Positions 14,611 to 35,763 of a stretch of DNA of 38,473 bases are shown here, piece after piece. The DNA is from Comamonadaceae bacterium (GTDB lineage Bacteria; Pseudomonadota; Gammaproteobacteria; Burkholderiales; Burkholderiaceae_C). The stretch lies in contig CANHSE010000003.1 of assembly GCA_947463025.1 (NCBI GenBank), forward strand, positions 1-38,473, in the 5' to 3' direction. The position numbers and the translations under genes were made by a program. The notes beneath the pieces are model-generated. The model had not been told where the DNA came from, made no database searches, and was given only the letters and a program-made list of their open reading frames with translations. The first letter of the stretch is position 1, and the number at the start of each line of letters is the position of its first letter.

Positions 14611-17600
14611 GGCGCACTCCAGTCCGGGACGCGCGCGGGAAACGCCCCTGGCCACGCCAAGGGGGACCGCTTGCCGGCCGGGCTCACGGACAGCCGCAGG
14701 TACACGCGCGCACGCGCCTCCTGCGGCGCCAGGGAAGCCACCGCGGCGACGGGCGCCAGGGGAAACTCGAAGCGCAGCAACTGCATCCTGGCGTCGGCAC
14801 GGCTGGCCCCCTCCGTCTCGCGGTGGGTCGTCAACAGCGTGAACAGGGACCACGGATCGGTGAACCGAAACCGCACCTCGCGCGGCTCCTCGATCGAGAG
14901 TGCGCTCTGGCTCGGCTCCGCCTGCGGCACCACCGGGCCGTCGCGCGCCAGCCGCAAGCGCAGCTCGATCGGGGTGCCCGGCTCCCAGCGCAGCGCGCGG
15001 GCCGGCTCGCGCGCACGCAAGGTCTGGCTGCCCACGAGCAGGGTCCAGTCGATGATCTTGTTGCCCTGGACCTCGCCGCCCGGATTGGCACGGAACTCGA
15101 CGGCCAGGTCGTAGCCGGCGGCGGATTCCGGCTGAGCGGGATACAAGGGGGCGAGGAAGGCGCGAACACGCTCCATCTGGTCGGCGAAGCGCCGCACCGC
15201 ATCGGACGGTCGCGGCCCCAGCAGGCGCTGCGCGCGCTCGAAGGCCTGGAGCACCGACCCGGTGTCCTCGGGGTCGGCTGGTGTGCGCTCGATCCCGCCG
15301 CTCCCGCTGGCGCGAAACGGCGAGCGCCCGGCCAGCTCTCGATTGAACAACTCGGCAAAACGGCTCCAGGACTCGCGCGTTTCGAGTTGACGTAACTCGC
15401 GACAGCGGTCGGCGAGGCTGGACTGCAAAGCCACCAGGCGTTCGGAAAATGCGTCGCCGACCCGGCGCGGCGCAGGCTTGATGCGGTCGGCGCAATTGAG
15501 CAGGTCCACATCGGCGGCGGTGGCCGTGACGAATTGCTCCAGCAGCGCCAGGCTGCTGGCCGGGCTCTTGAGCCGATAGCGCGTCAGGTCGGCGGTGATG
15601 CCGCGCCAGCGCTGCACGACCAGCCCGCTGCCATTGCCCTCCAGCAGCGGCAGCAACACCTCGGCCTCACGCGAGAGCGCGTCGATGAAGGCGGTCTGGT
15701 TGGCGGCATAGGCCACGAGGCCCGCCGCATCGCCCGCGCCGAAGGCGGCGACCAGCGGGGCCTTGTCACCCGTCCAGCTGCGAAAGTCGGGTTCGCGTGG
15801 CTGGTAGAAATCGCCCTGGCGGAAGGTGTCGTCCACGCGCCGCAGGCGCACCAACGCGTCGCGGGCCAGCACCTGCCCCAGGCGCGTCGCGGCCGTGCGC
15901 GCACCCAACTCGGTCAGCGCCGTCCCGGCCCGCGCCAGGCGCAGTCGATCCGCCTCGCCCACCGGGGGGGCGGCCGCCGGCGGCAGCAGGATGGCCGCCT
16001 GCGCCAGAAGATCCACCATGCCGTCGGCCAAAGCGCCCCGCACCCAGACGTCGACCTTGTCGCGCACCGGCGCCGGAAATTTAGGCAAGAGTTGGGCGTC
16101 GAACTGGCGACGGGCATCGGCCAAGGCGACCGCTTGGTCCAGCTTGCCACGGTCCCAGGCCACGGCCTGGCCGGTCGCCGGTTCGGGCAGCGCCCGATGG
16201 CCGGGTCGCATGTAGGGCTGCACCATCAAGGCCGACAGCGCGTCGCGCAGCGCCGCCCGGTCGGGCGTGAAACTCCATCGGGCTTCCTTGTCCTGCCAGA
16301 CCAGGCCAGGGCCCATCAGCGTCGAGCCCTCGGCCACCCAGGTCGCCCACTGTCCGCGGAAACGGTCCAGGGCGTCGCGGGTCTGCTGCTGGACCTGGGC
16401 CACCGCCGCCGGCCCCACCAGCGCGGTGGCCTGCATCCGCTGCATCAAATGGTCGTGCGCCTGCCCCAGCTCGGCCGTAGTCCCCTGCATCCAGGCCCCC
16501 TTGCCGGACACCATGAGCGCCTCCTGGCGGCGCAGGGCCTCGAGCATCGACGTCCAGCCTTGCTGCTGAACATCACGACCGGCCCCCTCACCCGCCTGGG
16601 AGACGGTGCGGGCCATCGCATCGATGCCCTGCTCCGCCAGCAGCAGGTCGTTTTTGTCGAACAAGCGGGTGCGCAGCGCCTTCATGGCCGTGCCGAAGGT
16701 GCAGGTGGCCGCGTGCTGCAGCGGCGCGGCTGCCAGGGGCGAGCGGCCCAGCGACTGCTTGCGCAGCAGACTGGCCGCACGGTCCAGGCTGACCGTCACT
16801 TCCGCGCCGAGGAAGACGCGCACCGCCAGCCGCAGGTCCTCGCCAGATGCGGCGCCAGCCTGGGCCTGGCTCAGGCGCTCCATGGCGCGCACGCCGCGGT
16901 CCAGCTCTTCCAAACGGCCCACGAACTCCAACAGGGCGGCGAACTCGGGCAGGTCTTCCACGTTCAGGCCCGAGCGCTGGACGACCTGGACCTGCGCGGC
17001 CCACCCCGGCGGCAGGGTGCAGGTGGAGCCGGTGATCAGGGTGCCCGTCGCCGGATCAACCGGCACGCCGGTAAGCTCACTGATGCGGCTGTAGGCGCCT
17101 AGCCGCAGAGGTTCGACGGCGTTCTCCGTAAAGCCGCGCTCCAGCCGTGCGTGCAAGCGGGCCTGCAGGTCATCGAACACCTCCCAGGAGCCGGGCATGA
17201 ACACCGATCCGAACAGACCGCCCTGGATGTGCTCCATCAGCGCGAGCGTGCCCAGCACGCGCGCACGGTCACGCGCGGCGTCGACGGGCTCTCCGACGGC
17301 GCGACCATGTCGATCCAGCTCATGAATGGCGGCGACGATGCCCGGGGACAGGTGCGACAGACGCACGGTGTAGACGGCCAGGCCGACCGTCCACACCACA
17401 GGCACCGTGATGGCGGTCCAGCGCACGAGTCGATGGACCAGGGGGCGACGCAGCTGCTGCGCGCGTGAGGCGCGCACCAGCCCCGGCTCCGCGAAGATCT
17501 TGCGCTCGAACAGATCACGCAGGAAGGCCGGCTCGCGCTCCAGCGTCTGCGCCGCCGGGTCCAGCACCGGCAGAGCGGCCGGGTCGGGGACGGTGACCCG

Positions 17601-18737
17601 GGGGGGCGGCTCGGCATCCGGCAACGGCTCGGCGGGAACGGGGGTCTCGTCTGCCACCTCGGCCAGCGCGGATGCCGGCGCCACGCGGCTCGGGCCGAAC
17701 GCGCCAGGGACGCCCCCACGCACAGCGGCGGACTCGCTGCAATCCCCGCTCAGGTAGAACCCGCGAAAGAAGAAGGGCTCGTGGTAGGCGCTGGTGCGCA
17801 TGAGCTCTTCCATGAACAGCTTGAGTCCGCGGCGCAGGCGTTCGAGCTCGGCGGGCAGCATGAAGTAATCCGCGCTGTGGCCTTCGGCCGGCTCCAGGGC
17901 GCACAGCTCGGCGCAGGCATCCTGCACATCGCGGGTGATGTCATCCAGGCCCGCATCGACCCAGCTGGCCTGAAACGGTGCGCCGAGCTCGTAGGGCGAT
18001 GACCAGCCGACCATGCTGCGGCGCAGAGTCTCCGGCAGCGCCCGGCCGAAGGCCGTGAAGCCCGGCACGCTTTCGCAGCCGGTGATGACCAGGTAGACCG
18101 GAAACTGCAAAGCAAAACGGTTCTGGGCCAGCCAGAGCCGCCGATGGATGGCCTTGGCCCGAGCGCCCAGGTGCAGCCCGGCCTCCGCTCCGTGGGCGGT
18201 CAGCAGGGACGCCGGCAAGGCGACCACCACCGCGTCGAAAGGTCGATCGGACCGGTACTTGCGGCACAGCCCCAGGAACTGGTCCCACACCTGGCTGCCC
18301 GCGGAGCCGGTCTCGTCCGGCGAGCCCAGGTGGCCGCCTTGCAGCTGGATGGCGACGCCCTTGTCGAAGAAATTCCAGTGCAGGCCGTGCGCCGCAACGC
18401 TCAGGGACGCATCGGTGCTCAAGGCGCTGGGAATGCCGGCGGCGACCAGCGGGAGGATCTGCTCGGTGTCCGCTTCGTTGAGCACCAGGGTCCAGCTCAG
18501 GTTGTAGCGCTCAGCACGCGAGGCCAGGTTGGCTTCGATCAGCTCCACTGCGTGCCGAAAGGACTGCTTGAGGGAGTCCATGCTGAGCTGACGAACCGGG
18601 GCGGCGCCGGGCGTCTGGCGCTCGCGGTCGGCGCTCACCGCTGCGGCCCACAACACCAGCCCCAGGACCAGCAAGGCGATCACCGCCAGCGCCAGCAGCG
18701 CGATGATCGCGAGGTGGTCGGTCAGGAAGTTCAGCAC
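14607..18737 (-). CDS. tssM: type VI secretion system membrane subunit TssM (IcmF)
   Basis: 1376 aa; N-terminal TM, second TM near WTAITVPVVWTVGLAVYTV, large periplasmic region, C-terminal FRFTDPWSLFTLL; adjacent to tssL and tssA. Confidence 0.93.
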   Translation of the reverse strand: MLNFLTDHLAIIALLALAVIALLVLGLVLWAAAVSADRERQTPGAAPVRQLSMDSLKQSFRHAVELIEANLASRAERYNLSWTLVLNEADTEQILPLVAAGIPSALSTDASLSVAAHGLHWNFFDKGVAIQLQGGHLGSPDETGSAGSQVWDQFLGLCRKYRSDRPFDAVVVALPASLLTAHGAEAGLHLGARAKAIHRRLWLAQNRFALQFPVYLVITGCESVPGFTAFGRALPETLRRSMVGWSSPYELGAPFQASWVDAGLDDITRDVQDACAELCALEPAEGHSADYFMLPAELERLRRGLKLFMEELMRTSAYHEPFFFRGFYLSGDCSESAAVRGGVPGAFGPSRVAPASALAEVADETPVPAEPLPDAEPPPRVTVPDPAALPVLDPAAQTLEREPAFLRDLFERKIFAEPGLVRASRAQQLRRPLVHRLVRWTAITVPVVWTVGLAVYTVRLSHLSPGIVAAIHELDRHGRAVGEPVDAARDRARVLGTLALMEHIQGGLFGSVFMPGSWEVFDDLQARLHARLERGFTENAVEPLRLGAYSRISELTGVPVDPATGTLITGSTCTLPPGWAAQVQVVQRSGLNVEDLPEFAALLEFVGRLEELDRGVRAMERLSQAQAGAASGEDLRLAVRVFLGAEVTVSLDRAASLLRKQSLGRSPLAAAPLQHAATCTFGTAMKALRTRLFDKNDLLLAEQGIDAMARTVSQAGEGAGRDVQQQGWTSMLEALRRQEALMVSGKGAWMQGTTAELGQAHDHLMQRMQATALVGPAAVAQVQQQTRDALDRFRGQWATWVAEGSTLMGPGLVWQDKEARWSFTPDRAALRDALSALMVQPYMRPGHRALPEPATGQAVAWDRGKLDQAVALADARRQFDAQLLPKFPAPVRDKVDVWVRGALADGMVDLLAQAAILLPPAAAPPVGEADRLRLARAGTALTELGARTAATRLGQVLARDALVRLRRVDDTFRQGDFYQPREPDFRSWTGDKAPLVAAFGAGDAAGLVAYAANQTAFIDALSREAEVLLPLLEGNGSGLVVQRWRGITADLTRYRLKSPASSLALLEQFVTATAADVDLLNCADRIKPAPRRVGDAFSERLVALQSSLADRCRELRQLETRESWSRFAELFNRELAGRSPFRASGSGGIERTPADPEDTGSVLQAFERAQRLLGPRPSDAVRRFADQMERVRAFLAPLYPAQPESAAGYDLAVEFRANPGGEVQGNKIIDWTLLVGSQTLRAREPARALRWEPGTPIELRLRLARDGPVVPQAEPSQSALSIEEPREVRFRFTDPWSLFTLLTTHRETEGASRADARMQLLRFEFPLAPVAAVASLAPQEARARVYLRLSVSPAGKRSPLAWPGAFPARVPDWSAP

Positions 18738-19567
18738 GTCAGGCCTCCTAGCCCATCCGGCGAGACGGCAGGCGTCATCGGCCCAGTGGCCAAATCGATC
18801 GCTTCACGCACCGGCCAGGACTGCCACAGCCAGAGCAGCTCGGACACGGCCAGCAAGCCCAAGACCACCAGCAGGGCCATGACCCACCAGCGGCTCAGCC
18901 GCGGCAAGCGCCGGGCGGCCAGATGGGTCAGGGTGCTGGCGTAGGCCTCGGGCGAGAGGGTCCGGTCCCGCCCCTGCAGATCGGGCGCGCGCTGGTAGAT
19001 GAACTGGAACAGCTCGCGCCGGTAGTCCGCGATTTTTTGCAAGGAGTCCGTGCCTCGGTAGCGGCCCTGGAATCCCAGCGAGAGCACGCTCAGGTACAGG
19101 CGCGCGATGGGACGCTGGGCCGGCTCGCGCTGAGACAGGATCTGCTCGATCTCCTCGAAGACCTTTTCGCCCGCGCTGCTGGTGCGAGACAGTTGGGCTT
19201 CGATCAGCACATGCCGCCAGTGGGGACGTCCGGCCCAGTCGGCGCTGATCAAAAGTTCATCGGCCAGCGCTGCCTTCAGATACCGCGCGTGAAACTCGGT
19301 GTCCGCCCCCGAGCGGCCGCCAATGCGCCGGGCCTCCAGCGTCTGCAACTCGATCAGCTGCACCAGCTGCTGGCTCAGGGCCTGGGTCGCAGCCACCGCC
19401 TCGGCCTCACTGACCTGGTGAACGGCCTGGCAGGCCAGGTCGAGCACGCCATAGAAATCGCGAAACTGGGCCGAGGGGAAATCGACCCCGCCGACCCCGG
19501 TCGCGCCGCGGGCCTGCGAGAGCAAGGTGGACAAGGCAGTGGATGTAGGCAGGGTCATGGCAGTCAT
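18731..19567 (-). CDS. tssL: type VI secretion system protein TssL (DotU family)
   Basis: DELLISADWAGRPHW, FFE-like EKVFEEIEQIL, YLSVLSLGFQGRYRG; single C-terminal TM. Confidence 0.94.
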   Translation of the reverse strand: MTAMTLPTSTALSTLLSQARGATGVGGVDFPSAQFRDFYGVLDLACQAVHQVSEAEAVAATQALSQQLVQLIELQTLEARRIGGRSGADTEFHARYLKAALADELLISADWAGRPHWRHVLIEAQLSRTSSAGEKVFEEIEQILSQREPAQRPIARLYLSVLSLGFQGRYRGTDSLQKIADYRRELFQFIYQRAPDLQGRDRTLSPEAYASTLTHLAARRLPRLSRWWVMALLVVLGLLAVSELLWLWQSWPVREAIDLATGPMTPAVSPDGLGGLTC

Positions 19568-19586
19568 GTCGGCGGGCGGTGTGCAC

Positions 19587-20933
19587 TCAGCCTTTGAGGA
19601 AGATCACCATCTCGTGGGGCCGTTGCATGGCGCTGGTTTCATTGGCATTGCTGATGACGAGGGTCTGACCCGCGGCGATGAAGGCCTCGGCGACGTCGAT
19701 GGCGAACAGGGTGTAGCCCGCGCTGGAGCGCAGGCCCAGCTCCGGCGCGTCGTCGATGCGGCGGCGGGCGGCGCCCAGCACGCGCCGCTCGGACAGCGAG
19801 GTCCAGACCGTGCGCGAGCCGATGACGGCCCCGGACATCCAGGCCACCAGCTCGCGCTCGGGCTGGCCGCGCAGGCCCACGACCAGGCGCGTGCCCGCAA
19901 CCACCGACTCCAAGGGCACGCTGAACGCGCCGGCGTCGAAGTCGAACAGGCTGGTCCGCCACTCCTGGCTGACCTCGCCCGCGAAGTCCTCCAGCGCGTC
20001 GAGCACAGGTCCGAGGGCGGCCATCGGATCGTCATGCACCCAGGCCGGCGGCAGCATTGGCACGGCCCCCGGTCGCAGCGCGGCCAGGGGCCCCAGCTGG
20101 GCGCACAGGGCCAGGTAGAGCGCATGGGGCGGCACCGACGGACTGCGCAACAGGGCCTCCAGCACGGGCAAGGCGAAGACCAGGCTGGCCAGTCGGGCCT
20201 TGCCCTCCAGGATGGCAAGCCGGTCTTCCATGCGGGAAGAAGGGTCCGACGTCTGCTTGACCAGAAAGGCGGCCTTGCTGCGCATCTGGGCGGCCAGGGC
20301 CTGGGCGCGCTGGCGCACCTCGCTGTGCAGCGGCACCTCCAGCCACGCGGGCTCGTAGGCGCCGCGCTTGTAGACCTCGTTGTCCTTGCGCACCGTCATG
20401 AGCTTGAGCGACAGGTAGGCGGACGAGGGCCGCTCGCCCACGGCCAAGGCGAGGTTGGGCACGGCGCGCGGCAGGTCGATCGGCAAGGCCTCGGAGATCT
20501 CGTCCTCCACCCGCTCGCCCGGCACACCGCGAAACCGGGCGGGCTGGGCACTGACCCGCAGGGAACGGGCCCGGCCGACCGTGAGGTAGATCGCGGCCCG
20601 CGCCTCTTCCAGCTGCGCGGCCAGGGGCGTGATGTCCAGCGTCAGGTCGGGCAGGCCCGGGGCGGACGCCGGCCAGGTGACCGCCATGCCATCGGGCATG
20701 ACCGCCTCCAGCGCCAGCACCCGCACCAGCCCGTTGGTCAGGAGGCTCTCGTCGATGTCCAGCCGCCGCAGGCCCCAGCCCAGCGGATGCGCCGCCAAGT
20801 GCTGCCAGGCGACCAGGTCATCGACCCGCGCGCTCTCCTGCTGGAAATGCTGGGGACTCAGGAGCATGCCTTCGTGCCACTGGATGCGCGGCGCGGGCGG
20901 GGTTGGGCGGTAGGTCATGGGGTCGTGGCTCAT
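19587..20933 (-). CDS. tssK: type VI secretion system baseplate subunit TssK
   Basis: IQWHEGMLLSPQHFQQE and GWGLRRLDIDESLLTNGLV motifs. Confidence 0.97.
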   Translation of the reverse strand: MSHDPMTYRPTPPAPRIQWHEGMLLSPQHFQQESARVDDLVAWQHLAAHPLGWGLRRLDIDESLLTNGLVRVLALEAVMPDGMAVTWPASAPGLPDLTLDITPLAAQLEEARAAIYLTVGRARSLRVSAQPARFRGVPGERVEDEISEALPIDLPRAVPNLALAVGERPSSAYLSLKLMTVRKDNEVYKRGAYEPAWLEVPLHSEVRQRAQALAAQMRSKAAFLVKQTSDPSSRMEDRLAILEGKARLASLVFALPVLEALLRSPSVPPHALYLALCAQLGPLAALRPGAVPMLPPAWVHDDPMAALGPVLDALEDFAGEVSQEWRTSLFDFDAGAFSVPLESVVAGTRLVVGLRGQPERELVAWMSGAVIGSRTVWTSLSERRVLGAARRRIDDAPELGLRSSAGYTLFAIDVAEAFIAAGQTLVISNANETSAMQRPHEMVIFLKG

Positions 20934-21547
20934 TTCGTGGGGTGGGGCTGCAGGTCCGAGCTGGTAAAGCCCTTGGGCCCCAGCTGCAGCAGGAACGCCT
21001 CGCCCTTGGGCTGCAGGCGTTCGCGGTGCTCACCCGGCGAGGAATAGGCGGCAAAGGCCAGGATGGCCAGCGCGTGCTGGTGGATCTGCGCGGGATCGGT
21101 GAGCCTGAGGGTCTGGCCGGGCACCACCTCCACGGAGACCACACCCAGCGCGTCGGGGAAGGTGCGCTGGGTGTCACCGCGGGTGGCAAACCATTTGGCG
21201 GCCGGGGTGGCCGAGAGGGATTCGACGAGCGCCGGATCGCGCACGAACACCAGATCGAGCGCCACCGGGCTGTTCTGATTGGCATCCGCTGCGGCCGCGA
21301 TGGTGACGCTCTTCCAGGAGGGTGCCGTGGGGTGGGGCTTGCCGACGCCGACGAGTTCTGCGCCCGCCGACACGATGGACTCCGTCAGTTTGGTGAGCGA
21401 GCTGCACGCCGTGAGGCCGAGGCTGGCCGCGAGTACGAGTGCGGGTGCGAGCACCGATGCGCAGACAGCGCAGCGCCCACGGCGCCGGGGTGCGGCGAGG
21501 ATGCAAGGCGATGTGCGGTCGTGCGAGCGCGGTGTAGGAGCCGTCAT
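20930..21547 (-). CDS. tssJ: type VI secretion system lipoprotein TssJ
   Basis: Lipobox LTACSS; NQNSPVALDLVFV; VVPGQTLRLTDPAQ; 4-bp overlap with tssK. Confidence 0.9.
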   Translation of the reverse strand: MTAPTPRSHDRTSPCILAAPRRRGRCAVCASVLAPALVLAASLGLTACSSLTKLTESIVSAGAELVGVGKPHPTAPSWKSVTIAAAADANQNSPVALDLVFVRDPALVESLSATPAAKWFATRGDTQRTFPDALGVVSVEVVPGQTLRLTDPAQIHQHALAILAFAAYSSPGEHRERLQPKGEAFLLQLGPKGFTSSDLQPHPTK

Positions 21548-22983
21548 GGAATCCTCGCCTTCAAAGACAAGGCGTGCTCGGTGTCGAGCAGGCCCACGCC
21601 GAGGCCGGCCAGCCCCGCGGCGAGCAGCGCGAACAGCACCAGGCCCATCAGCAAGAGCGCATCGCGCGGTCGCAACGACACTGCGACACGGGGCCGCGCG
21701 GCGCGCTGTGCCGGTTCGACCACACGCGGCATCCGAAGCGGGCCGGCCGCCAACGTGACCAAGGGCGCCACCACCACGATCGACACCAGGTTACGGATGC
21801 CGGCCGTGAGCGGCTCCAGCAGCACCAGCGTAGGCAAGAGCGCCTCCAGCGGGAGTCCGAGCCAACCCAACGCGAGGCCTGCGGCGGCCAGCGCCCAGCC
21901 GCTGGCGTAGGCCACGCTGGCCAGGGCCGCGGCCGTCGATGCCAGCGCGATCACTCCCAGATCGATCACGCCCAGGGGCCGGCCATACAGCTGGGCGGCG
22001 AACACGGCCAGCACCCCGAAAAAGAGCGCATCACCCATGCGCACAACAGCGGGCAAAAGGGGCGCGGACAACTCCATCAGGTCGCGCCGACCGCCCAGGC
22101 GGTTGCACATGGCGTCGATCAAGCCCGGTACGGCGGCGGCCGGGCCGGTCGAGAACAGGCCGATCACCAAGGGTTCGCGCAGGGCTCCCACCACCCGATC
22201 GACAGGCTGACGCATCCGCAGCGCCGTCACCCCCAGGGCCAGGGCCGTGACAACCAGAGCGACCAAGACGAGCGGAATCAGAAACGCCTGCATACGCCCC
22301 AGCAGCGCCAGACCCAGGGTGTGGACCGACGCCGCCGCCATGGCGAAGGCAAACAGCGGCAACCCGGCATGGGCGCGCGCCATCAGGGTCTCGAGGCTGC
22401 GGTACACGCCCTCGGCAAGCGCCAGGAAGGCGCGCCCCCGCTCTCCCCCCTGAACAGCGAGACCCACGCCAAAGAACACCACGCCGATCAAGGCACTGAC
22501 CAGAGTGCCATAGGCCAAGGCGCGGTAGCCGTTGTCCGGCACCACCGTGTCCCAGGTCAATGCGGCAAACGCGTCGGCGGATTCAGCCGGTTCAGCCCGC
22601 AGGGCGACGGTGGGTATCGCCTCGACCTCCAGCGCGGCGCGCCCGAGGGCAGTGGCCATCTCGGCGCCACCGCCTGGGCCGGTGATCGCCAGCATCGCCA
22701 GGCCCGCCGCGAGGCCCGCCAGCGCCATCATGGCCAGGAGGCCCGCCAGCATCCGCACCAGCAGCCCGCGCATCGACCCGGGCTGAGACGGCCACTGGCG
22801 CAAGCCGGACCAGACCGCCAGCACGATCAAGGGCAAGCCCACCATGTTCAGCAGCGCGATATAGGCCTGACCTGCCGCGCTTAACCACGTCAGCTTCAGC
22901 GGTGACCACGCGCCCACCGCGGCGCCGCACAGGATCGCCAGCAACAGTCGGGCGCCGGGGCTGAGCCAGGGTGTGCGCATCAC
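21544..22983 (-). CDS. divergent SDF-family (cation:dicarboxylate symporter-like) transporter, copy A
   Basis: 479 aa, polytopic; YIALLNMVGLPLIVLAVWSGL, STGPAAAVPGLIDAM, GWLGLPLEALLP; 4-bp overlap with tssJ. Confidence 0.82.
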   Translation of the reverse strand: MMRTPWLSPGARLLLAILCGAAVGAWSPLKLTWLSAAGQAYIALLNMVGLPLIVLAVWSGLRQWPSQPGSMRGLLVRMLAGLLAMMALAGLAAGLAMLAITGPGGGAEMATALGRAALEVEAIPTVALRAEPAESADAFAALTWDTVVPDNGYRALAYGTLVSALIGVVFFGVGLAVQGGERGRAFLALAEGVYRSLETLMARAHAGLPLFAFAMAAASVHTLGLALLGRMQAFLIPLVLVALVVTALALGVTALRMRQPVDRVVGALREPLVIGLFSTGPAAAVPGLIDAMCNRLGGRRDLMELSAPLLPAVVRMGDALFFGVLAVFAAQLYGRPLGVIDLGVIALASTAAALASVAYASGWALAAAGLALGWLGLPLEALLPTLVLLEPLTAGIRNLVSIVVVAPLVTLAAGPLRMPRVVEPAQRAARPRVAVSLRPRDALLLMGLVLFALLAAGLAGLGVGLLDTEHALSLKARIP

Positions 22984-23678
22984 GCTACGCCCTCCGCCAG
23001 AGCGTGCTCGATCGCGGCCAGGGCCAGGGCGCGGGTGCTATCCACCAGGGTCAAGCCCTCGGGGTCGCAGCGCCGCGCCGCCAGGGGTAGCTCGGTGCAG
23101 CCCAGCACCACGCACGACAGGCCCTGTCCCGCCGCCTGGCGCAGCACGCGTGACAAGCTGTGTGCTGCCGCCGCAGGCTCGCCCGCCTTGATCTGGGTGA
23201 TGCAGCGGTCTACGTCGTGCTGCACGGCCAAGGCGTCGGGCTCGACCGGCTCCAGCCCGGCCTCGCGCAGCGCTGTGCGATACAAGCCAGACCGCTGCAC
23301 ACCCCGAGTGGCCAGGACCAGCACGGCCGCTCCGGGCGGCTGCCGCAGCCGCGCGACACAGGCCCGTGCGATGTGCAGGACCGGCACCGCAGACTGTTCG
23401 CACAGCTGCGCGTGCCAGTGATGAGCGCTGTTGCAAGGAATCGCCACCAGGTCTGCGCCTGCGCGCTCGAGCAGGTGCAGACCCTCGAGCAGCGCGGGCA
23501 AGGGATCTGGCCCCAGCCCCAGGATCGCCGCGCTGCGATCAGGCACCTGCGGCCGGAAGGCGGCCAGCACCGGGATGTGATCCTGGTCGCGCCGAGCGGG
23601 CGTCAGCCGCACGAGTTGGTCTAGGAAATCGACCGTGGCCGCCGGACCGAGCCCCCCCAGAACGCCGATCGTTCGCAT
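22980..23678 (-). CDS. aspartate/glutamate racemase family protein
   Basis: MRTIGVLGGLGPAATVDFL; both catalytic Cys motifs present (AIPCNSAHHW and VVLGCTELPL). Start placed at 23678, not the long ORF start. Confidence 0.93.
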   Translation of the reverse strand: MRTIGVLGGLGPAATVDFLDQLVRLTPARRDQDHIPVLAAFRPQVPDRSAAILGLGPDPLPALLEGLHLLERAGADLVAIPCNSAHHWHAQLCEQSAVPVLHIARACVARLRQPPGAAVLVLATRGVQRSGLYRTALREAGLEPVEPDALAVQHDVDRCITQIKAGEPAAAAHSLSRVLRQAAGQGLSCVVLGCTELPLAARRCDPEGLTLVDSTRALALAAIEHALAEGVA

Positions 23679-23680
23679 GG

Positions 23681-24997
23681 CTACACCTCCAGCGGCCGCG
23701 GGCAGATCAGTGCCACGGCGGCGCAGTTGCCCAGAACAATCAGCACCGTGCGACCGATGTCGCACAGGGGCTCCACCGCCAGGAACAGCACGAAGGCGGC
23801 CTCGAAAGGCAGGCCCAGGTAGCCGCTCGTGGTGCCCAGCATGGACAGCGTCACCACACCGCTGGCCCCGGCGGAGGCGAAGCCGGCCAGGATGGACACG
23901 ATCGCCACCAGACCCAGTTCCTGCAGGCTCAGTTCTTTTCCGTAGAGGGCGGCGATAAAGAGCGTGGCACTGACGTAGTAGAGGATGGGTCCGGTGCGCA
24001 GCAGGGAGACGCTCAAGGGCACCAGCAGCTCCACCCGCATCCGCGCGAAGCCGAGCTTGTCCGCCATCGCCTCGATCATGGCGGGCATGCACACCGCACT
24101 GTTGCGGGTCACCACGGCCAGCGCGAACGGAGCACGCAGCGCGTCCAGGACCTGGGACCAGGACTTGCCGCTGCGCCGCCGGATCAGGACGATGGCCAGC
24201 ACCACCAGCGACAAGGCACTGCCGGTGAACGTGGCGACGAATCCCGCCATCGGCCGCAGTGTCTCCAGACCGCTTTGCCCGATCTGCGCCGCCGCCATGC
24301 AAAAGAGCACGATCGGCACGGGGTAGTTGAACCAACGCGTGAGCGTCTGGCAGGCCGCATAGACTGTCCCCAGCGCATCAATCAAGCCCTGGGAGACCCG
24401 CACCGGCACCTGCCCGGCCGCGAAGCCAAACAGCAAGGCGAACACCAGGGCCTTGAGGGTCTCGCCCTGCGCGAAGGACGCGAAGACGTTCGAGGGGATC
24501 AGGGTGCCCAGCACATCGCGCAAGCTGACGCCACCCAACTGGCCTTCGTCGGGCGCCTCGGGGGCGTACAGCTCGATTTCCTGACTCCCTTGCCGGCTGT
24601 CGCTGCCCACGATCCGTCCGAAATCAGCCTGCAGTTGCGGCGACAGCTCGGCGCCCAAGCCGGTGAGCCGCGCACTGGCCAGGCCCAGTGCGGCCACCGC
24701 GCACGCAAACAAGAGGAACACCCACAGCACACGCGCCAGGGTCTTGCGCGCGCCGCCCTCGCGAAACAGGTGTTGCAAGCTGAAGATGACCGCCGAGACC
24801 ATGAAGGGCAGCACGATCATCTGCAGCAGGTCGACATACACGCTCCCGATCACGCCCAGGCGGCGCGCAGCCTCAGGCTGCCAGGCACCCAAGGCGCCGC
24901 CCGCCAGCAGGCAGCCCACCACCCACCAGGGATTCAAGGCCCAGGCCTGCCAGCGGCTCCAGTGGGGGAAAGAAATCGAAGGCATGGGCGTGCGCAC
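23681..24997 (-). CDS. SDF-family (cation:dicarboxylate symporter-like) transporter, copy B
   Basis: 438 aa; YVDLLQMIVLPFMVSAVIFSL, IPSNVFASFAQGETLKALVFALLFG, TRNSAVCMPAMIEAM, VEPLCDIGRTVLIVLGN. Confidence 0.9.
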   Translation of the reverse strand: MRTPMPSISFPHWSRWQAWALNPWWVVGCLLAGGALGAWQPEAARRLGVIGSVYVDLLQMIVLPFMVSAVIFSLQHLFREGGARKTLARVLWVFLLFACAVAALGLASARLTGLGAELSPQLQADFGRIVGSDSRQGSQEIELYAPEAPDEGQLGGVSLRDVLGTLIPSNVFASFAQGETLKALVFALLFGFAAGQVPVRVSQGLIDALGTVYAACQTLTRWFNYPVPIVLFCMAAAQIGQSGLETLRPMAGFVATFTGSALSLVVLAIVLIRRRSGKSWSQVLDALRAPFALAVVTRNSAVCMPAMIEAMADKLGFARMRVELLVPLSVSLLRTGPILYYVSATLFIAALYGKELSLQELGLVAIVSILAGFASAGASGVVTLSMLGTTSGYLGLPFEAAFVLFLAVEPLCDIGRTVLIVLGNCAAVALICPRPLEV

Positions 24998-25000
24998 CTC

Positions 25001-25867
25001 TCAACGCAACTCTTTGAGCACCGAGTCCACGGTGAGCTTCTCGGCCCGCAAGCCGACGAACTTGTTGACGAAGGCCAATAAGGTCGCATTGCGCACACCG
25101 ACGGCCACGGCCAGGGCATCGGTCAGGTCCTTCAGGATCACGGTGCGCAGCGTCAGCACCAGCCCGGGGTCGTCCTGCAGGATCCGGCGCACCTCGAACT
25201 CGTCCCGGTAGGCACCCATGACCTGCCCGCGCCGCACGGCATCGATTACCGCCTCCCAGCTGGAGTAGGTGACGATGCGGGCGCGGGGGAAATGGCGCGG
25301 TGCGAAATCTGCAAACGAGGAGTTGGCGATGACCGCCAGCGACCCCTCGAAATTGCGAATGACCTGGGACAGCGTCCGCTCACGCAGAAGTGCGGCGAAC
25401 TCGACTCGATGCAGCAAGAGCGCGTGGTTCAGCCTCAGGTAGGGATCGGAGAAATGCACTGACAAGGCACGCGCCAGGGTGTGCGAGAGCTTGCTGATGC
25501 CCAGATCCGCCCCTCCACGCGCCACGAACTCGACCACCTCGTTGAAGCTGCGCGGCGACCGGTCGATGCGCAGCGTCACGCCCAGCTCGCCGGCCAGCTG
25601 CTGCGCCATCCGCACATCGCTGCCGACCAGGCGGTTGTTCTTCATGTGGAAAAACGGCGGCGTGTCGGTGGCGGCCATGGCAACGACGAGCTCGCCCCGG
25701 TGCAAGATGGCCCCGATATCGGCGGCCACCAGATCGCCTTGCGGCAGCCGCACCATGGGGGCATGGGGCTGGGCCTGAGCCTGGGCCCAGCTGCCCGGAG
25801 CGGCCGCCCAGCCCCCGAGCAGCCAGCCGGCCATGACGGCCAGGCCTTGCCGGCGCTGCGTCCTCAC
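25001..25867 (-). CDS. periplasmic substrate-binding protein, SBP_bac_3-like (amino-acid type)
   Basis: Hydrophobic N-terminus ending in Ala-Gln-rich region; GSDVRMAQQLAGELGV, TLARALSVHFSDPY; GTG start at 25867 overlapping the upstream stop by 4 bp. Confidence 0.85.
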   Translation of the reverse strand: MRTQRRQGLAVMAGWLLGGWAAAPGSWAQAQAQPHAPMVRLPQGDLVAADIGAILHRGELVVAMAATDTPPFFHMKNNRLVGSDVRMAQQLAGELGVTLRIDRSPRSFNEVVEFVARGGADLGISKLSHTLARALSVHFSDPYLRLNHALLLHRVEFAALLRERTLSQVIRNFEGSLAVIANSSFADFAPRHFPRARIVTYSSWEAVIDAVRRGQVMGAYRDEFEVRRILQDDPGLVLTLRTVILKDLTDALAVAVGVRNATLLAFVNKFVGLRAEKLTVDSVLKELR

Positions 25868-26085
25868 GGCCGCCCCTCCGGCCCACCCGCCCGCCCCGCG
25901 CTCGCTGGCTTCGCGGCGGATGGGGCGGCCTGGGCCGCAGGCATCACCGGGGCCGCAGCGGCCGGGACCGGCGCGAGCCGATGACCCAGCTGGATCCCCA
26001 GCAAGAATGCCAGGACCAGCAAGGTGAGCAAGCTCAAGCACGCCAGCAGCAGAAGACGGGGGGTCAGGCTGAATCGGTAGTCCAT
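25864..26085 (-). CDS. small single-TM protein with Ala/Pro-rich tail
   Basis: 73 aa: MDYRFSLTPRLLLLACLSLLTLLVLAFLLGIQLGHRLAPVPAAAAPVMPAAQ...; stop overlaps the SBP gene start (GTGA). Confidence 0.65.
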   Translation of the reverse strand: MDYRFSLTPRLLLLACLSLLTLLVLAFLLGIQLGHRLAPVPAAAAPVMPAAQAAPSAAKPASAGRAGGPEGRP

Positions 26086-26105
26086 GAAAGGGCTCTCGCT
26101 CGGGT

Positions 26106-26492
26106 TCAGGGAACGGCCACTGTGAATTGGCCGGGCATGTCGATGCCGATGACGCCGCCCCAGTTGCATGCCAGCTTGGAGCTGTTGTTCAGGGCCGGCA
26201 GGTTGCCGATCAGAACGGTGGGCGAGCCCGGCGACCAGGGCGCGGTCGTCATCGGCAGGCAGGGCATGGGCACCAGGCTGCCCATGGCGGCCGCCGTGGC
26301 CGCCGCCACCATCGGATTGCCCATCGAGCGGCACATGACAAAGGGCAGCACATTGACCAGCGGCTGGTTGTCCATGACGGTGGCCGCCGGTGTGCCGGTG
26401 AACACGCCGTGCTGGGGCACCACCATCAAGGTGGACGGCGCGGTGCCAAACGAGCAGCGGGTGAGCGCCCCGGCGCAGACTTGTTGCCCCAT
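26106..26492 (-). CDS. DUF4280 / PAAR-like protein
   Basis: 128 aa: MGQQVCAGALTRCSFGTAPSTLMV...MPCLPMTTAPWSPGSPTVLIGNLPALNNSSKLACNWGGVIGI, a DUF4280-type pattern. Confidence 0.85.
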   Translation of the reverse strand: MGQQVCAGALTRCSFGTAPSTLMVVPQHGVFTGTPAATVMDNQPLVNVLPFVMCRSMGNPMVAAATAAAMGSLVPMPCLPMTTAPWSPGSPTVLIGNLPALNNSSKLACNWGGVIGIDMPGQFTVAVP

Positions 26493-26493
26493 C

Positions 26494-27180
26494 TCAGTCG
26501 CCCCTCACGATCCGCAGCAGCCGCTCCAGCGTCGAGGGCGCGCTCTGGGCCGCAACGGTCGGCGCACCCGACGCGGACGGCCGCTGAGGCGCCCCCAGAG
26601 GTACGCCCAGTCGGTAATGGACTTCTTCGATCAACTGGCCCTCGGGCCCGTAGCGACGCACAGGTCCGTGCAGAAGGTTGGCCCGGTAGGTGCAGGTCTG
26701 CATGACGGCGCCGTCGGTCGTGAAGTCGGTGGACGGGCCCTCCAGCAGACCCGCGCGGTAATGCGACAGCCGGATGCGGCGCCCTTCGTGCAGCAGCTCG
26801 CAGGGGCCATCGAGCTGACCGGCCCGGTAATGCAGACGCGCGCTAGGCCGGCCCGCGGCGTCGAAAGCGACGCTGGCGCCATGCAACTGGCCTTGCACAT
26901 ACTGGTGTTGCGCGGCGCAGCGACCGTCGACAAACACCTTCATCACGCCATGAGGCCGTCCGCCCGCATAGCTGCAGCTTTGCTGCAGACCCCCATTGGC
27001 GTCGTGCACCGTCATCGGCCCGTGCAGCTTGCCTGCCTGGTAGTGAGCCCGCACGAGGAGCGTGCCGTCGTCGGCGTACTGCTCCAGCGGCCCGTCCAGC
27101 ATCCCCGCGCGCCGGGCGCAACGCAGGACGGGGCGGCCCAGAGCGTTGTGCTGTTCGAGGGGGACGGTCGGTGCGTCCAT
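26494..27180 (-). CDS. MORN-like repeat protein (YwqK-type)
   Basis: 228 aa from ATG at 27180; tandem ~22-aa G-x-L-x-G-P units (GMLDGPLEQYADDG, GKLHGPMTVHDANG, GQLDGPCELLHEG, GLLEGPSTDFTTDG, NLLHGPVRRYGPEG). Confidence 0.85.
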   Translation of the reverse strand: MDAPTVPLEQHNALGRPVLRCARRAGMLDGPLEQYADDGTLLVRAHYQAGKLHGPMTVHDANGGLQQSCSYAGGRPHGVMKVFVDGRCAAQHQYVQGQLHGASVAFDAAGRPSARLHYRAGQLDGPCELLHEGRRIRLSHYRAGLLEGPSTDFTTDGAVMQTCTYRANLLHGPVRRYGPEGQLIEEVHYRLGVPLGAPQRPSASGAPTVAAQSAPSTLERLLRIVRGD

Positions 27181-27182: not shown

Positions 27183-29150
27183 TCAGTTCACCTTCACCAT
27201 CGCGCCCTTGAGCGTCAGCACCGCGCCGGCCTCGACGTTGTGCGACGCGTCGGCCTTGCTGCCGATCATGGGCGCAGCCAACGCGATCTCGGTGCCGCCT
27301 TGCTGCTGCAACTTCACGCCGGCCTTGGCGGTCAAGTTGGTGCCGGACTCCAGGTTCAGGTCGGTGCCGCTCTTGATCACCCAGGCGGTGCCCGATTGCA
27401 GCTGCGCGTCGGCGTTGGTCTTGAGCGTGAGCGCGCCGCCCACGGTGATCGTGAGCTTGCCGTCCACCTTGAGCTCGTAGTCGCCGCTGACGGTATGCCG
27501 AAAAGCCGCCCGGCTGGTGTGGCTCTCGTCGCCCGTCACATCGACCGTGCGGGCGCCCTTGACCGTGTGCGTCTCCTGCCCCTTCTTTAACTCCAGGCTG
27601 CGGTCGCCCTCCTCCAGCACATGCACCTCGCCACCCTTTTTCAGGGTCGTCGACAGGCCGTTCTCGATTTCGACCGTCATGTCCTTTTGCGCATGCAGGT
27701 AAAAGGCCTCGGCGTCCTTCTTGTCCTCCAGGCGCAGCTCGTTGCCGGCCTGTCCCTGCTTGGACGAACGGGTACGCAGCACGGTCTGCGTCTGTGCGTC
27801 TGGCAAGGTCACGGGTGTCGCGTTCTCGCCGTTGTAGACGCACCCTGTCACCAGCGGGCGCTGCGGATCGCCATTGAGGTAGCTCACCACCACCTCCTGG
27901 CCCACGCGCGGCAGCACCAGCGCGCCAAAGCCGTTGCCCGCAAAGGACTGCGCCACGCGGATCCAGCTCGAACTCTGGTCGTCGCCCTGGCCCTGACGGT
28001 CCCACGGAAACTGCACCTTGATGCGTCCGTACTTGTCCGTCCAGATCTCCTCCCCGCTGGGGCCGACCACCCGCGCGGTTTCGCAGCCCGAGGCGCGCGG
28101 CAGCGCCGTGACCAGCGCCGCGCGAAACGGCACGCTCGCCGGGAAGGCTTCAAAGACGTTGGCATAGCCTTCGTCACTAACCTGGTGACGCACCCGCTGC
28201 AGCACGTAGTTCGTGTTCAGTGCGCCCACAAAATGGTCCTGAAGGCCAAAGCGGGTGCCCGCCGCCAGTGCGTAGGCAAAGCTCTCACCCGCGACGATCT
28301 GGGCCTGCACCTGACTGGCCTCCACCCGCAGACGCGCGCGGTTTGCGCCCGCGGACACCGAGGCATGCCCCGTCGCGAACTCGTAGAAGCCGCCCGCGCC
28401 GCCGGACGCACTGTGGCTGCCGGCCAACGACGTGCTGGGCTTCTCGAAGTCGTAGTCGTCGGCGGTGGCCTGCTTGAGGGCCAGCTGCCGCTCGCGCCGG
28501 AAGCGGGTGACGGCATCCAGCGGCCGGCTCGCGCCATAGACGGGCAAAAAGCGCAGCGAGGCAGCGCCGGCGCAATCGGCAAACGCCGAGTTCGCATCCG
28601 CCAGCACCAGGGTGTGCCCGCCCGCTGCAAACGTGAAGAAATAAAAGATCCCCGCCTGCTCCATCAGGCGAGAGATGAATTCCAGCGCGGACTCGTCGTA
28701 CTGCACGCAGTAGTCCAGCGCTGGATAGCTGCCACTGAGTTGGGCGCGAAAGGGAATGTTCGCCTCCTGCAAGACGGCCTGCACGATCGCGTCCACCGAC
28801 TTCGCCTGGTAGATGCGCCGGTCGCGGGACCACCGCAGCAGCGACAGGCGGGGCTCCACCTGCGCCTCGTAGGTGGCGAAGTCGCGATCGAACCCGCTGT
28901 GGACAAAGCGGGTACACAGACCATGCAGGTAGCGCTTGGGCGCGCTGCCGGCCTGCAGCGTCAGCGTGATCTCCTGCCCCACGATGTCGGCCGGGTCCAG
29001 ACCGGGGTTGCCCGAGCGCATGAATACGTGGAAGCCAAACAACTCGCTCAGGCCCTCGCTGCCTTGCAACGCGTCCACCAGCAGGTCGTCCGCCCCGAAG
29101 GGCGTGGCGACCGTGACCATCCGCCCCGCCTGCGTGAACCCGGATCTCAT
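27183..29150 (-). CDS. vgrG: type VI secretion system tip protein VgrG
   Basis: 655 aa; LFGFHVFMRSGNPGLDPADIVGQEITL; gp5/gp27-like core; GDPQRPLVTGCVYNGEN; DUF2345-like C-terminus. Confidence 0.97.
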   Translation of the reverse strand: MRSGFTQAGRMVTVATPFGADDLLVDALQGSEGLSELFGFHVFMRSGNPGLDPADIVGQEITLTLQAGSAPKRYLHGLCTRFVHSGFDRDFATYEAQVEPRLSLLRWSRDRRIYQAKSVDAIVQAVLQEANIPFRAQLSGSYPALDYCVQYDESALEFISRLMEQAGIFYFFTFAAGGHTLVLADANSAFADCAGAASLRFLPVYGASRPLDAVTRFRRERQLALKQATADDYDFEKPSTSLAGSHSASGGAGGFYEFATGHASVSAGANRARLRVEASQVQAQIVAGESFAYALAAGTRFGLQDHFVGALNTNYVLQRVRHQVSDEGYANVFEAFPASVPFRAALVTALPRASGCETARVVGPSGEEIWTDKYGRIKVQFPWDRQGQGDDQSSSWIRVAQSFAGNGFGALVLPRVGQEVVVSYLNGDPQRPLVTGCVYNGENATPVTLPDAQTQTVLRTRSSKQGQAGNELRLEDKKDAEAFYLHAQKDMTVEIENGLSTTLKKGGEVHVLEEGDRSLELKKGQETHTVKGARTVDVTGDESHTSRAAFRHTVSGDYELKVDGKLTITVGGALTLKTNADAQLQSGTAWVIKSGTDLNLESGTNLTAKAGVKLQQQGGTEIALAAPMIGSKADASHNVEAGAVLTLKGAMVKVN

Positions 29151-31879
29151 GCCGAAGGTCCTCCTGGCTGCAAGGGGGCGTCACGGAAGTCGTAGGTGAA
29201 CTGGCCCTCGGGGGACACCCCCATGCGCACCGCATCGAAGGGCCGGTGCTCGCACATGCGCTCGAGCACCATGGACGACAGCTGCGGCAACACGGTTTGC
29301 GTGAGGATGAAATCGATGTTGCGCGCACCCGAGTCCACCTCGGTGCAGCGCGCGGTGATGCTGTCGGTGACCGCGTCGTCCCAGGTGAAGGTGCTGTGGT
29401 GGTTGTCGGCAAAGCGCCGGGCCAGATGTCCCAGCTTCAGGCCGACGATGCGCTGGACCTGTGCGTCCCCCAGAGGGTAGTAGGGCACCAGCACCAACCG
29501 TCCAAGGAAGGCAGGACTGAACTGGCGCATCAGGTGAGGCCGCAACCGCTCCACCAGTTGCACGGGATCTGGGCGCCGCCCACCCTCGCAGGCCTGCGTG
29601 ATCACGTCCTGCGCCGCGTTCGACGTCAGCAGAATCAGGGTGTTGCGAAAGTCGATCGTGACGCCCTCGCCGTCCTCCATCGATCCCTTGTCGAAGACCT
29701 GGAAAAACAGCTCCAACACGTCGGGATGGGCCTTCTCCATCTCGTCGAGCAGCACCACGCTGTACGGACGACGCCGCACCGCCTCGGTCAACACCCCGCC
29801 CTTGCCGTAGCCCACATAGCCGGGGGGTGCGCCCTTGAGACTGGAGACCGAGTGCGCCTCCTGGAACTCCGACAGATTGATCACGATCATGTTGCGCTCG
29901 CCGCCATACAGGGTGTCGGCCAGCGCGCAGGCCGTCTCGGTCTTGCCCACGCCGCTGGGGCCCACCAGCATGAACACGCCCACCGGCTTGCCCGGATCGT
30001 CCAGGTCGGCGCGGAAGGTGCGCACCCGGCGCGCGATCGCATCGAGCGCCGCGTCCTGTCCGACCACGCGCTCGGACAGCGTCTCGCGCAGGTGCAGCAC
30101 CGTGTGGATCTCGTCGGCCATCATCTTGCCCACCGGGATGCCGGTCCAACTCGAGATGACGTCCGCGACCCCATGGGCGTCGACATACAGGGGCACCAGC
30201 GGCTCGTCGGCCTGAATCGCCTCCAACCCTTTTTGCAGCCGCTGCAATTGGGCGGCCCGTGAGGCGCGCTCCTCGTCCTCTCCAGCCTCGCCCTCCCCGA
30301 TCTTGGATTGCGCGCCTTGGGCGATCTCGCGACGCAAGGCCAGGATCTCCTGCACGGCGCGGCGTTCATCCACCAGCTTGGCCGTCAATTGCGTCTGCCG
30401 CGCCTGGTGACCCGCCAGCAGGGCCTGCAGCTCGCGGATCTGCGCGCCACGCTCCTCGCCGCGCGCGTGCGCCTGCTGCGCCAGGCGCAACTCCTCGGTG
30501 CACAGCGCGATGTCGCGGCCCGCGGCCTCCAGCTGCCAGGGCTCGCCCGACAGGCCGACTGCCACACGGGCGCACGCTGTGTCCAGCACGCTGATCGCCT
30601 TGTCTGGCAACTGGCGGCCCGAGATGTAGCGATGCGACAGACGCACCGCATCCTGAACCGCCGTGTCCAGAATCTCGACGCCGTGGTGACGCTCGAGGGT
30701 GGCGGTCATCCCCCGCAGCATGTCCACGGCGACGTCCGGCACCGGCTCCTCCACCTTCACCACCTGAAACCTGCGGGCCAGGGCGGGATCGCGCTCGACG
30801 TATTTCTTGTATTCGGCCCAGGTGGTGGCCGCGATGGTGCGCAACTCGCCACGGGCCAGGGCCGGCTTGAGCAGATTGGCCGCATCGCCCTGCCCCTCGG
30901 CACCGCCCGCGCCGATCAGCTGGTGGGCCTCGTCGATGAACAAGATGATGGGCGTGGCGCAGGCCCGCACCTCGGCGATCACAGATTTCAGGCGGTTTTC
31001 GAACTCGCCCTTGAGCCCGGCCCCCGCCTGCAACAGGCCCAGGTCCAGGGTGCGCACCGTCACCCCCGCCAGCGCTGGCGGCACGCGCCCCTGCACCACG
31101 CGCTGGGCAAAGCCCTCGACCACCGCGGTCTTGCCCACGCCCGCCTCGCCGGTGAGGATCGGGTTGTTCTGGCGCCGCCGCAGCAGGATGTCGATGATCT
31201 GGCGGATCTCCGCGTCGCGCCCGCGTATCGGGTCGATCCGTCCTTCACGCGCCTGCGCCGTGAGGTCGATCGTGAACTGCTCCAGCGACGGCGTGCTGCC
31301 CCCCTGCGCAGACGGCGCCTGCGGCATCCGTCCGACCGCTTGTGACGGCGCGGTCATCGCAGCGGGCGAGTTGGCGGCGCCGCCAGGCGCCGCAGCCCCC
31401 GCGTCCTCCGACGAAAAGGACAAGAGCCCGGCCAGCTCTTGGCGCAAGGTCTCGCGCGGGATCTCCAACAAGGCCGGTGCGATCTCCAGCAGCGCACCGC
31501 GCAGGCTGTCCACCTCCAGCAGCGCCAGCATGACCGTGCCTGAACGCACCTGCTGCTGCCCCAGCAGCATCGCACTGAGAAGCCAGGCCTCCTGAAACAG
31601 CGGCGCGAAGTGCGGGGACAGCGCCGGCGTGCGGCCGTTGCCCCGCTTGAAGCGGTCCACGTTCTCCTGTAACTGGCCCGTGATGGCCGTGGCGTCCAGG
31701 TCGAAGCGGCGCAACACCTGCTGGACGTCGGGCGCAGGCGCCTCCAGCAGCGCCAGCAGCAGGTGCTCGAGCTCCACGTTGTAGTGCGTGTGCTGCACGC
31801 ACAACTCGGCTGCCCGGGTCATCGCGCGTTTGCACTCCGGGTTGAGACGAGACAGCAGCGTGCGGATGTCAATGTCCAT
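29147..31879 (-). CDS. tssH: type VI secretion system ATPase TssH (ClpV)
   Basis: Two AAA modules with GEAGVGKTAVVEG and GPSGVGKTETACAL; N-terminus MDIDIRTLLSRLNPECKRAMTRAAELC. Start at 31879. Confidence 0.97.
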   Translation of the reverse strand: MDIDIRTLLSRLNPECKRAMTRAAELCVQHTHYNVELEHLLLALLEAPAPDVQQVLRRFDLDATAITGQLQENVDRFKRGNGRTPALSPHFAPLFQEAWLLSAMLLGQQQVRSGTVMLALLEVDSLRGALLEIAPALLEIPRETLRQELAGLLSFSSEDAGAAAPGGAANSPAAMTAPSQAVGRMPQAPSAQGGSTPSLEQFTIDLTAQAREGRIDPIRGRDAEIRQIIDILLRRRQNNPILTGEAGVGKTAVVEGFAQRVVQGRVPPALAGVTVRTLDLGLLQAGAGLKGEFENRLKSVIAEVRACATPIILFIDEAHQLIGAGGAEGQGDAANLLKPALARGELRTIAATTWAEYKKYVERDPALARRFQVVKVEEPVPDVAVDMLRGMTATLERHHGVEILDTAVQDAVRLSHRYISGRQLPDKAISVLDTACARVAVGLSGEPWQLEAAGRDIALCTEELRLAQQAHARGEERGAQIRELQALLAGHQARQTQLTAKLVDERRAVQEILALRREIAQGAQSKIGEGEAGEDEERASRAAQLQRLQKGLEAIQADEPLVPLYVDAHGVADVISSWTGIPVGKMMADEIHTVLHLRETLSERVVGQDAALDAIARRVRTFRADLDDPGKPVGVFMLVGPSGVGKTETACALADTLYGGERNMIVINLSEFQEAHSVSSLKGAPPGYVGYGKGGVLTEAVRRRPYSVVLLDEMEKAHPDVLELFFQVFDKGSMEDGEGVTIDFRNTLILLTSNAAQDVITQACEGGRRPDPVQLVERLRPHLMRQFSPAFLGRLVLVPYYPLGDAQVQRIVGLKLGHLARRFADNHHSTFTWDDAVTDSITARCTEVDSGARNIDFILTQTVLPQLSSMVLERMCEHRPFDAVRMGVSPEGQFTYDFRDAPLQPGGPSA

Positions 31880-34666: not shown

Positions 34667-35121
34667 GCGACGGCATCCGTCTGCAGCCCCGGATCGTCCA
34701 GAGCCATGTCGAAATCCACGCGCTGCAAGGTGCGCCCCAGCAGGGCCTGTGCCGAGACCGTCACGCAGGCACGCTCGGGTCGACGCGGATCACGCCGCGC
34801 GCTCACGGTCACGGCCGACAGGCGCGGCTCGAACAGCGCGATGGCGTGGCCCACCACGCCGGCCATCACCTGCAGGTCCTTGTCGGACTGCACACTCAGC
34901 CCCAGCAGGTCGGGCAGACCGTAGTGCCACACCGACCCCTCAACCTCCAAAAACCCGGCGATCGTGAGCCCGTTGCGGGAACTTAAAAGTCGCAGCAAGT
35001 CGCGTCGCAACGAAGCCCGCAGATCCGGCCCCTCGAGCACACGCGCCTGCGACGACGGACCATCGTCCCCGCACAAACGCTCGAACAAGGGAACGTAGGA
35101 CGCCCTGACGAATGTGGACAC
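34663..35121 (-). CDS. tssE: type VI secretion system baseplate subunit TssE (start uncertain)
   Basis: PLFERLCGDD; LLRLLSSRNG; YGLPDLLGLSV; position between hcp and tssF. GTG 35121 proposed as start. Confidence 0.88.
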   Translation of the reverse strand: MSTFVRASYVPLFERLCGDDGPSSQARVLEGPDLRASLRRDLLRLLSSRNGLTIAGFLEVEGSVWHYGLPDLLGLSVQSDKDLQVMAGVVGHAIALFEPRLSAVTVSARRDPRRPERACVTVSAQALLGRTLQRVDFDMALDDPGLQTDAVA

Positions 35122-35170
35122 GGTACGACTTCGTAACAGCGAGACCCGGTGGGCAGGCGTAGCGACCCGT

Positions 35171-35204: not shown

Positions 35205-35216
35205 CGCAGCGGCGCG

Positions 35217-35702: not shown

Positions 35703-35725
35703 ACGCTAGCTCCTTGGTTCGTGGT

Positions 35726-35752: not shown

Positions 35753-35763
35753 CATGCAGGGAC

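Follow-up and report, generated by a model that had tools for sequence, protein, structure and literature searches.

A transporter cassette in a type VI secretion operon of a Comamonadaceae bacterium and its possible coupling to the secretion machine

Why does an operon for a type VI secretion system (T6SS) carry, between its spike gene vgrG and the lipoprotein gene tssJ, genes of the kind used to bind, transport and racemize amino acids? The question is raised by a stretch of 38,473 nucleotides (positions 1 to 38,473 of contig CANHSE010000003.1, assembly GCA_947463025.1, from a Comamonadaceae bacterium), hereafter called the window. Its minus strand carries, head to tail, vgrG and genes for a MORN-repeat protein, a DUF4280 protein, a 73-aa protein with a single transmembrane (TM) helix, a solute-binding protein (SBP) of the SBP_bac_3 family, a transporter of the SDF family (SDF-B), an Asp/Glu-type racemase and a second SDF (SDF-A), followed by tssJ. 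This block consists of two layers: the MORN, DUF4280 and small TM genes belong to the T6SS itself, while SBP, SDF-B, racemase and SDF-A form a four-gene cassette inserted between the small TM gene and tssJ of a Burkholderiales T6SS-b-type operon. The cassette is linked to the T6SS, it is modular, its SDFs have lost the NMD motif of the sodium site, and SDF-A ends in an extra helix (TM9). The answer that we favour, though with rather more doubt than confidence, is that SDF-A may be a T6SS-docked transporter or sensor which, fed by the SBP, would couple an acidic amino acid in the periplasm to the machine, SDF-B and the racemase handling the ligand.

The gene set itself has been published. An earlier reading of this DNA from the sequence alone (the sequence-only reading) knew of no described system with exactly these genes, which is contradicted by the T6SS-b cluster of Paraburkholderia phymatum STM815 (Bphy_5978-5997) and 15 relatives. 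Hug et al. 2021 give vgrG (Bphy_5985), YwqK (5986), a PAAR-like protein (5987), a hypothetical protein (5988), an amino-acid ABC protein (5989), an SDF (5990), an Asp/Glu racemase (5991) and another SDF (5992), and list comparable clusters from 15 strains belonging to Paraburkholderia, Burkholderia, Cupriavidus, Variovorax, Rhodoferax, Achromobacter and Janthinobacterium; Cupriavidus necator H16 is reported to be among the carriers (PMC8356804). Gene order is identical to that of the window, as is the operon span from tssB to tssA, and comparison with pBPHY01 (NC_010625.1) gives 54% identity for SDF-B, 52% for the racemase and 46% for the SBP. That paper interprets the transporter genes as two symporters of unknown substrate, already proposes dicarboxylate sensing for this T6SS, and assigns SecReT6 class i4a to the P. 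phymatum system only; it holds no mention that we found of cassette separability, NMD loss or a relationship between TM9 and the small TM protein (PMC8356804). As far as our literature search reached, what is new is how SDF-A is built and that the two layers can be separated. Unlike P. phymatum, the genome of the window (a 2.6-Mb assembly in 240 contigs, 90% complete) has no known plant link.

Distribution and modularity of the cassette

A search with SDF-B as query returned 80 homologous loci. The order from vgrG to tssJ recurs, within this T6SS, in 68 of them; 11 lie away from T6SS genes and in 1 the contig is too short to tell. Because the same order recurs so often, the block is not a product of chance. 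A location mainly away from T6SS loci, the outcome that would have spoken against a T6SS module, does not apply to the block as a whole but does apply in part to SBP-SDF-B, which also occurs as a stand-alone unit. Since the SDF-B query selects for the cassette, TssK was used to obtain a sample independent of it, in 399 genomes of the order and 401 of the family. TssK proteins with at least 45% identity were found in 15 genomes (the window's own included), and SDF-A lies inside the operon in 13 of these, the two exceptions being G628 and G162 (below).

The cassette and its surroundings can be told apart by what remains when one is missing. The MORN, DUF4280 and small TM genes are kept in T6SS loci that have no amino-acid genes, and are therefore T6SS genes; the small TM protein is found in nearly all T6SS loci, cassette-free ones included. 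The sequence-only reading had treated all seven genes as one module, a view that does not survive this observation. In one genome (G162) the usual site is without the cassette, and SBP-SDF-B-SDF-A are found beside the far end of the same T6SS (tssM), on its contig but on the opposite strand; the relocated SDF-A keeps TM9. In Ramlibacter albus the T6SS retains SBP and SDF-A, with SBP-SDF-B-racemase located elsewhere. There are 12 loci in which SBP-SDF-B occurs by itself, with or without the racemase, namely L029 and the 11 that lie away from T6SS genes; 10 of the 12 genomes have no detectable TssK, several of them being incomplete metagenome-assembled genomes (MAGs). No SDF-A was found outside this T6SS context among the loci examined. 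Within the cassette it is the racemase that is most often absent: the SDF-B tree calls for five or more changes in its presence, and it is absent from several lineages in which SBP and the SDFs stay. As the most dispensable gene, it weakens any reading centred on racemization, including the central place that the sequence-only reading had given it.

Two explanations that do without an action on the machine bear on this pattern. The cassette might be a hitch-hiker or remnant, co-inherited with the operon and with no role in T6SS action, as its absence from one genome with this T6SS (G628), its reduction in others and the changing presence of the racemase could suggest. Its reading frames are nevertheless intact, its proteins are 45-57% identical across families, gene order is conserved, motifs are invariant and the linkage survives relocation, so that we consider this improbable. 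Alternatively, SBP, SDFs and racemase could scavenge nutrients, taking up and converting acidic amino acids from prey killed by the T6SS, with co-transcription as their sole link to the machine. Because SBP-SDF-B-racemase occurs alone in genomes without detectable TssK, these genes can work as an uptake system, and the genome encodes no PF00375 protein besides the two SDFs of the window. What scavenging leaves unexplained is a second SDF that was found only with this T6SS, always bears a TM helix in common with a T6SS protein, and stays linked after relocation; further evidence on each side comes from SDF-B (below). Taken together, scavenging is a possible explanation, if a doubtful one.

The locus of G628 (L155) represents a natural cassette deletion in the same T6SS subtype. 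The SBP-SDF-B pair may be a general input module. In the flanks examined outside T6SS loci (L092, L099, L100, L102, L107, L109 and L029), it has envelope or signalling genes beside it: secretin/TPR genes in L092 and L107, a dCache-adenylate cyclase and a formyltransferase-like protein in L099 and L109, a glycosyltransferase and a polysaccharide exporter in L100, and, judged by eye, an ABC exporter and a HlyD-like protein in L029. In the last (genome G015, 8248-9524) the SDF of the SBP-SDF-racemase unit is in two pieces separated by about 24 bases, which may reflect a frameshift, an assembly error or a pseudogene.

The two transporters and their ligand

A hydrophobic segment, TM9, follows the eight SLC1 helices in all 72 full-length SDF-A proteins. 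In the window SDF-A it covers residues of about 439-477. Most copies have a short RFxFTR-like lead and end in a GxGxR-like motif, and the segment resembles the small T6SS TM protein, whose profile reads MqYvFSmTsRM...LLFLLGvEIG. In profile comparison by hhalign, 37 rows give a probability of 95.8% (E 6.7e-9) and 74 rows give 95.3% (E 2e-8). Of the controls, 66 other windows of the same transporters reach at most 28%, the reversed profile reaches 1.5%, and none of 200 column shuffles, with core and flanks kept apart, comes close (best score 21.0 versus 34.7 for the real profile). TM9 and the small TM protein are thus likely, but not certain, to share descent, the reservation being that the match spans only about 35 residues. 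The AlphaFold model of SDF-A (pLDDT 82) predicts an SLC1 fold with an additional helix at 439-477, and its top match in the PDB is 9bgz, an uncoupled ancestral aspartate transporter. Among the substrate-site residues of SDF-A only R397 (GltPh numbering, as throughout) is conserved.

Both SDFs depart from the family at the centre of the sodium site. In the SLC1 aspartate transporter GltPh, the NMD motif of TM7 has a role in binding Na1, Na2, Na3 and the substrate, and uncoupled SLC1 aspartate transporters also keep it (PMC12668577); the window SDFs share the SLC1 fold with these proteins but carry Arg or Lys at the Met position. All 92 SDF-B proteins have L-(R/K)-x in place of N310-M311-D312 (LRT, an LLR motif, in the window), and SDF-A has R or K at 311 in every copy but one (L108). 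Where the motif can be read, ordinary SDFs of relatives retain N(M/L)DG; in the tree SDF-A and SDF-B are sister clades, and four ordinary SDFs lie apart from them. Na+-independent transporters with other folds suggest, by analogy, that the basic residue at 311 may stand in for Na+. Loss of the motif argues against Na+-driven accumulation, and to that extent against scavenging. The window SDF-B does retain D394, R397 and T398, the residues that bind Asp in GltPh, which favours uptake of an acidic amino acid, and the same three residues are retained in SDF-B of every locus with a racemase. These proteins also add a branch of SLC1 with a basic residue at the centre of its Na+ site, useful for understanding how ion coupling is lost.

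Residue 394 of SDF-B, whose Asp is the ligand of the amino group, co-varies with the racemase: it is D in all 63 racemase-bearing loci and A in 20 of the 27 without one, and the combination of racemase and A does not occur. Repeated co-evolution of D394 with the racemase was considered and rejected. On the tree, D gave way to A only once, and D394 is the same in 4 of 5 independent pairs; the pattern is one event and therefore not evidence of repetition. The SDF-B of G162 has T at 394 and groups in the same clade as the copies with A.

SBP and racemase give clues to the ligand without naming it. The SBP has an N-terminal signal-like stretch, and its model (pLDDT 89) finds amino-acid SBP folds as best structural matches; orthologs are 42-56% identical, and T130, R133, Y220, R221, D222 and E225 are invariant in the alignment, but the fold does not single out a ligand. 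In the racemase the first catalytic Cys is conserved in 63 of 63 copies and the second in 61 of 63; of the two copies that lack the latter, L046 is cut off. The window racemase scores 229 bits with NCBIfam NF052483 (cysteate racemase CuyB, cut-off 190 bits); the name cysteate racemase (PMC11382572) was considered but is not assigned, because racemases from loci outside this family pass the same cut-off, with 227-257 bits.

A two-cysteine racemase with both catalytic residues in nearly all copies would also suit wall editing or self-protection, in which D-Asp or D-Glu made by the racemase would leave the cell through the SDFs and be incorporated into peptidoglycan. The model for this is Acinetobacter RacK, a racemase reportedly associated with a T6SS and with peptidoglycan editing, an analogy that our literature search did not confirm. 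The association of racemase and T6SS is common to both; the window racemase, however, lies in the operon, is often missing and is accompanied by an SBP and transporters. Against wall editing stand the loss of the racemase where SBP and SDFs remain, an operon without transpeptidase, ligase or other wall gene, and the SBP, which points to capture and not export; the explanation is thus distinctly unlikely. Since the window's genome has two other PF01177 members, its racemase need not be the source of D-Glu.

Coupling of SDF-A to the T6SS

Coupling of this T6SS to the transport or sensing of acidic amino acids, as the sequence-only reading proposed, is plausible because the head-to-tail block is conserved and T6SS-linked. 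For our own, more specific reading, docking, ligand and the effect on the T6SS are the proposed parts. In the periplasm, the SBP would capture an acidic amino acid, which could be Asp, Glu or an analogue such as cysteate, and present it to both SDFs. SDF-B, with its Asp-type site and without the usual Na+ ligands, would carry it across the membrane, and the racemase, where present, would interconvert D and L forms. SDF-A would use TM9 to dock on the membrane complex of the T6SS, at the site of the small TM protein or one like it, and could couple ligand occupancy to assembly or firing, much as the SDF protein DctA of E. coli acts through its C-terminal helix 8b to set how DcuS responds (PMC8307970). 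In its most explicit form, which is possible but which we would sooner doubt than believe, SDF-A would be a secondary transporter recruited as a dedicated input subunit and fused to a copy of a T6SS membrane subunit, gating the T6SS by periplasmic acidic amino acid that the SBP delivers, for example from lysed neighbours. A precedent comes from Pseudomonas aeruginosa, in which lysis of kin cells is reported to activate antibacterial pathways (PMC4348357).

The parallel with DctA lies in the C-terminal extension of an SDF-family transporter, which in DctA binds a partner in the membrane and governs how that partner responds to ligand (PMC8307970), and which in SDF-A would do likewise. The two differ in that helix 8b is short and amphipathic with a histidine kinase as partner, while the extension of SDF-A is a full TM helix and its partner is presumed to belong to the T6SS.

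Several points weigh against such a coupling. DctA controls a kinase and not a T6SS, and its co-regulation is independent of its own substrate site (PMC8307970). The homology of TM9 to the small TM protein involves about 35 residues of hydrophobic helix. G628 (three contigs, estimated 100% complete) has vgrG-MORN-DUF4280-TM-tssJ and hence the T6SS, yet no SDF was found anywhere in its genome, and four distant T6SS (TssK 31-37% identical) show the same order with the cassette absent, so the machine does not need the cassette. In P. phymatum, transcription of T6SS-b peaks on citrate and is low on glutamate, an experiment that tests transcription only (PMC8356804).

To our knowledge, the trigger for firing has been established for few T6SS, and we know of no transporter that is part of the machine. 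If SDF-A were docked, this would be a T6SS gated by a metabolite, for which a candidate subunit can be named; without such coupling, the locus still illustrates clearly that a movable transporter cassette can reside inside a T6SS operon.

Operon layout and neighbouring genes

The T6SS operon runs on the minus strand from tssB (37804) to tssA (13447), about 24 kb, and all 13 core tss genes (tssB, C, D, E, F, G, H, I, J, K, L, M and A) are recognised in a single same-strand run (Table 1). Coordinates and Pfam bear out the sequence-only reading in the order and strand of the genes between vgrG and tssJ, and in their junctions, which range from 4-bp overlaps to a 20-bp gap.

Table 1. Genes of the T6SS operon in the window
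Gene or product	Layer	Position	Strand	Assignment
clpV (tssH), tssG, tssF, tssE, hcp, tssC, tssB	First operon half	29147..37804	-	
vgrG (tssI), spike		27183..29150	-	Pfam Phage_GPD, base_V, Gp5
MORN-repeat (YwqK-like) protein	T6SS	26494..27180	-	Pfam MORN_2, 41 bits
DUF4280 PAAR-like spike-tip protein	T6SS	26106..26492	-	Pfam DUF4280, 115 bits; weak IglG PAAR-like match
73-aa single-TM protein	T6SS	25864..26085	-	
SBP, periplasmic amino-acid-binding-protein-like	Cassette	25001..25867	-	Pfam SBP_bac_3, 51 bits
SDF-B, SLC1-fold transporter	Cassette	23681..24997	-	Pfam SDF PF00375
Two-cysteine Asp/Glu-type amino-acid racemase	Cassette, dispensable	22980..23684	-	Pfam Asp_Glu_race, 147 bits; NCBIfam
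SDF-A, divergent SLC1 paralog with extra C-terminal TM9	Cassette	21544..22983	-	Pfam SDF PF00375
tssJ lipoprotein		20930..21547	-	Position and orthology
tssK, tssL, tssM, tssA		13447..20933	-	

Overlaps of 4 bp join clpV/vgrG, TM/SBP, racemase/SDF-A, SDF-A/tssJ and tssJ/tssK. Gaps are 2 bp for vgrG-MORN, 1 bp for MORN-DUF4280, 3 bp for SBP-SDF-B and, as the widest junction, 20 bp for DUF4280-TM. The SBP starts with GTG at 25867; SDF-B and racemase overlap by 4 bp with GTG 23684 as the racemase start, or are 2 bp apart with ATG 23678. The two SDFs score 198 and 118 bits with PF00375, and tssJ reaches a weak 16 bits in Pfam, below the cut-off, its orthology being given by position and sequence.

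A genome search detected a single VgrG, and genes directly downstream of vgrG could be an effector with its immunity gene. The block does follow vgrG, and its MORN protein is annotated as a YwqK antitoxin in P. phymatum (PMC8356804). No toxin family was recognised by Pfam or NCBIfam for any block gene, the DUF4280 protein is without a toxin extension, and polytopic transporters are unlikely cargo, which makes this the least probable of the explanations and a very unlikely one.

An asparaginase gene (1885-2847, same strand), about 11 kb past tssA, is likely unrelated. One cassette of Burkholderiales-type T6SS (L076, CALPVM020000029.1) is on a contig labelled as an Akkermansia muciniphila MAG, a contig that is probably misbinned. 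In three distant T6SS operons (L136, L137 and L138) no match to clpV was found between tssF and vgrG, where the gene is present in the window and in L135.

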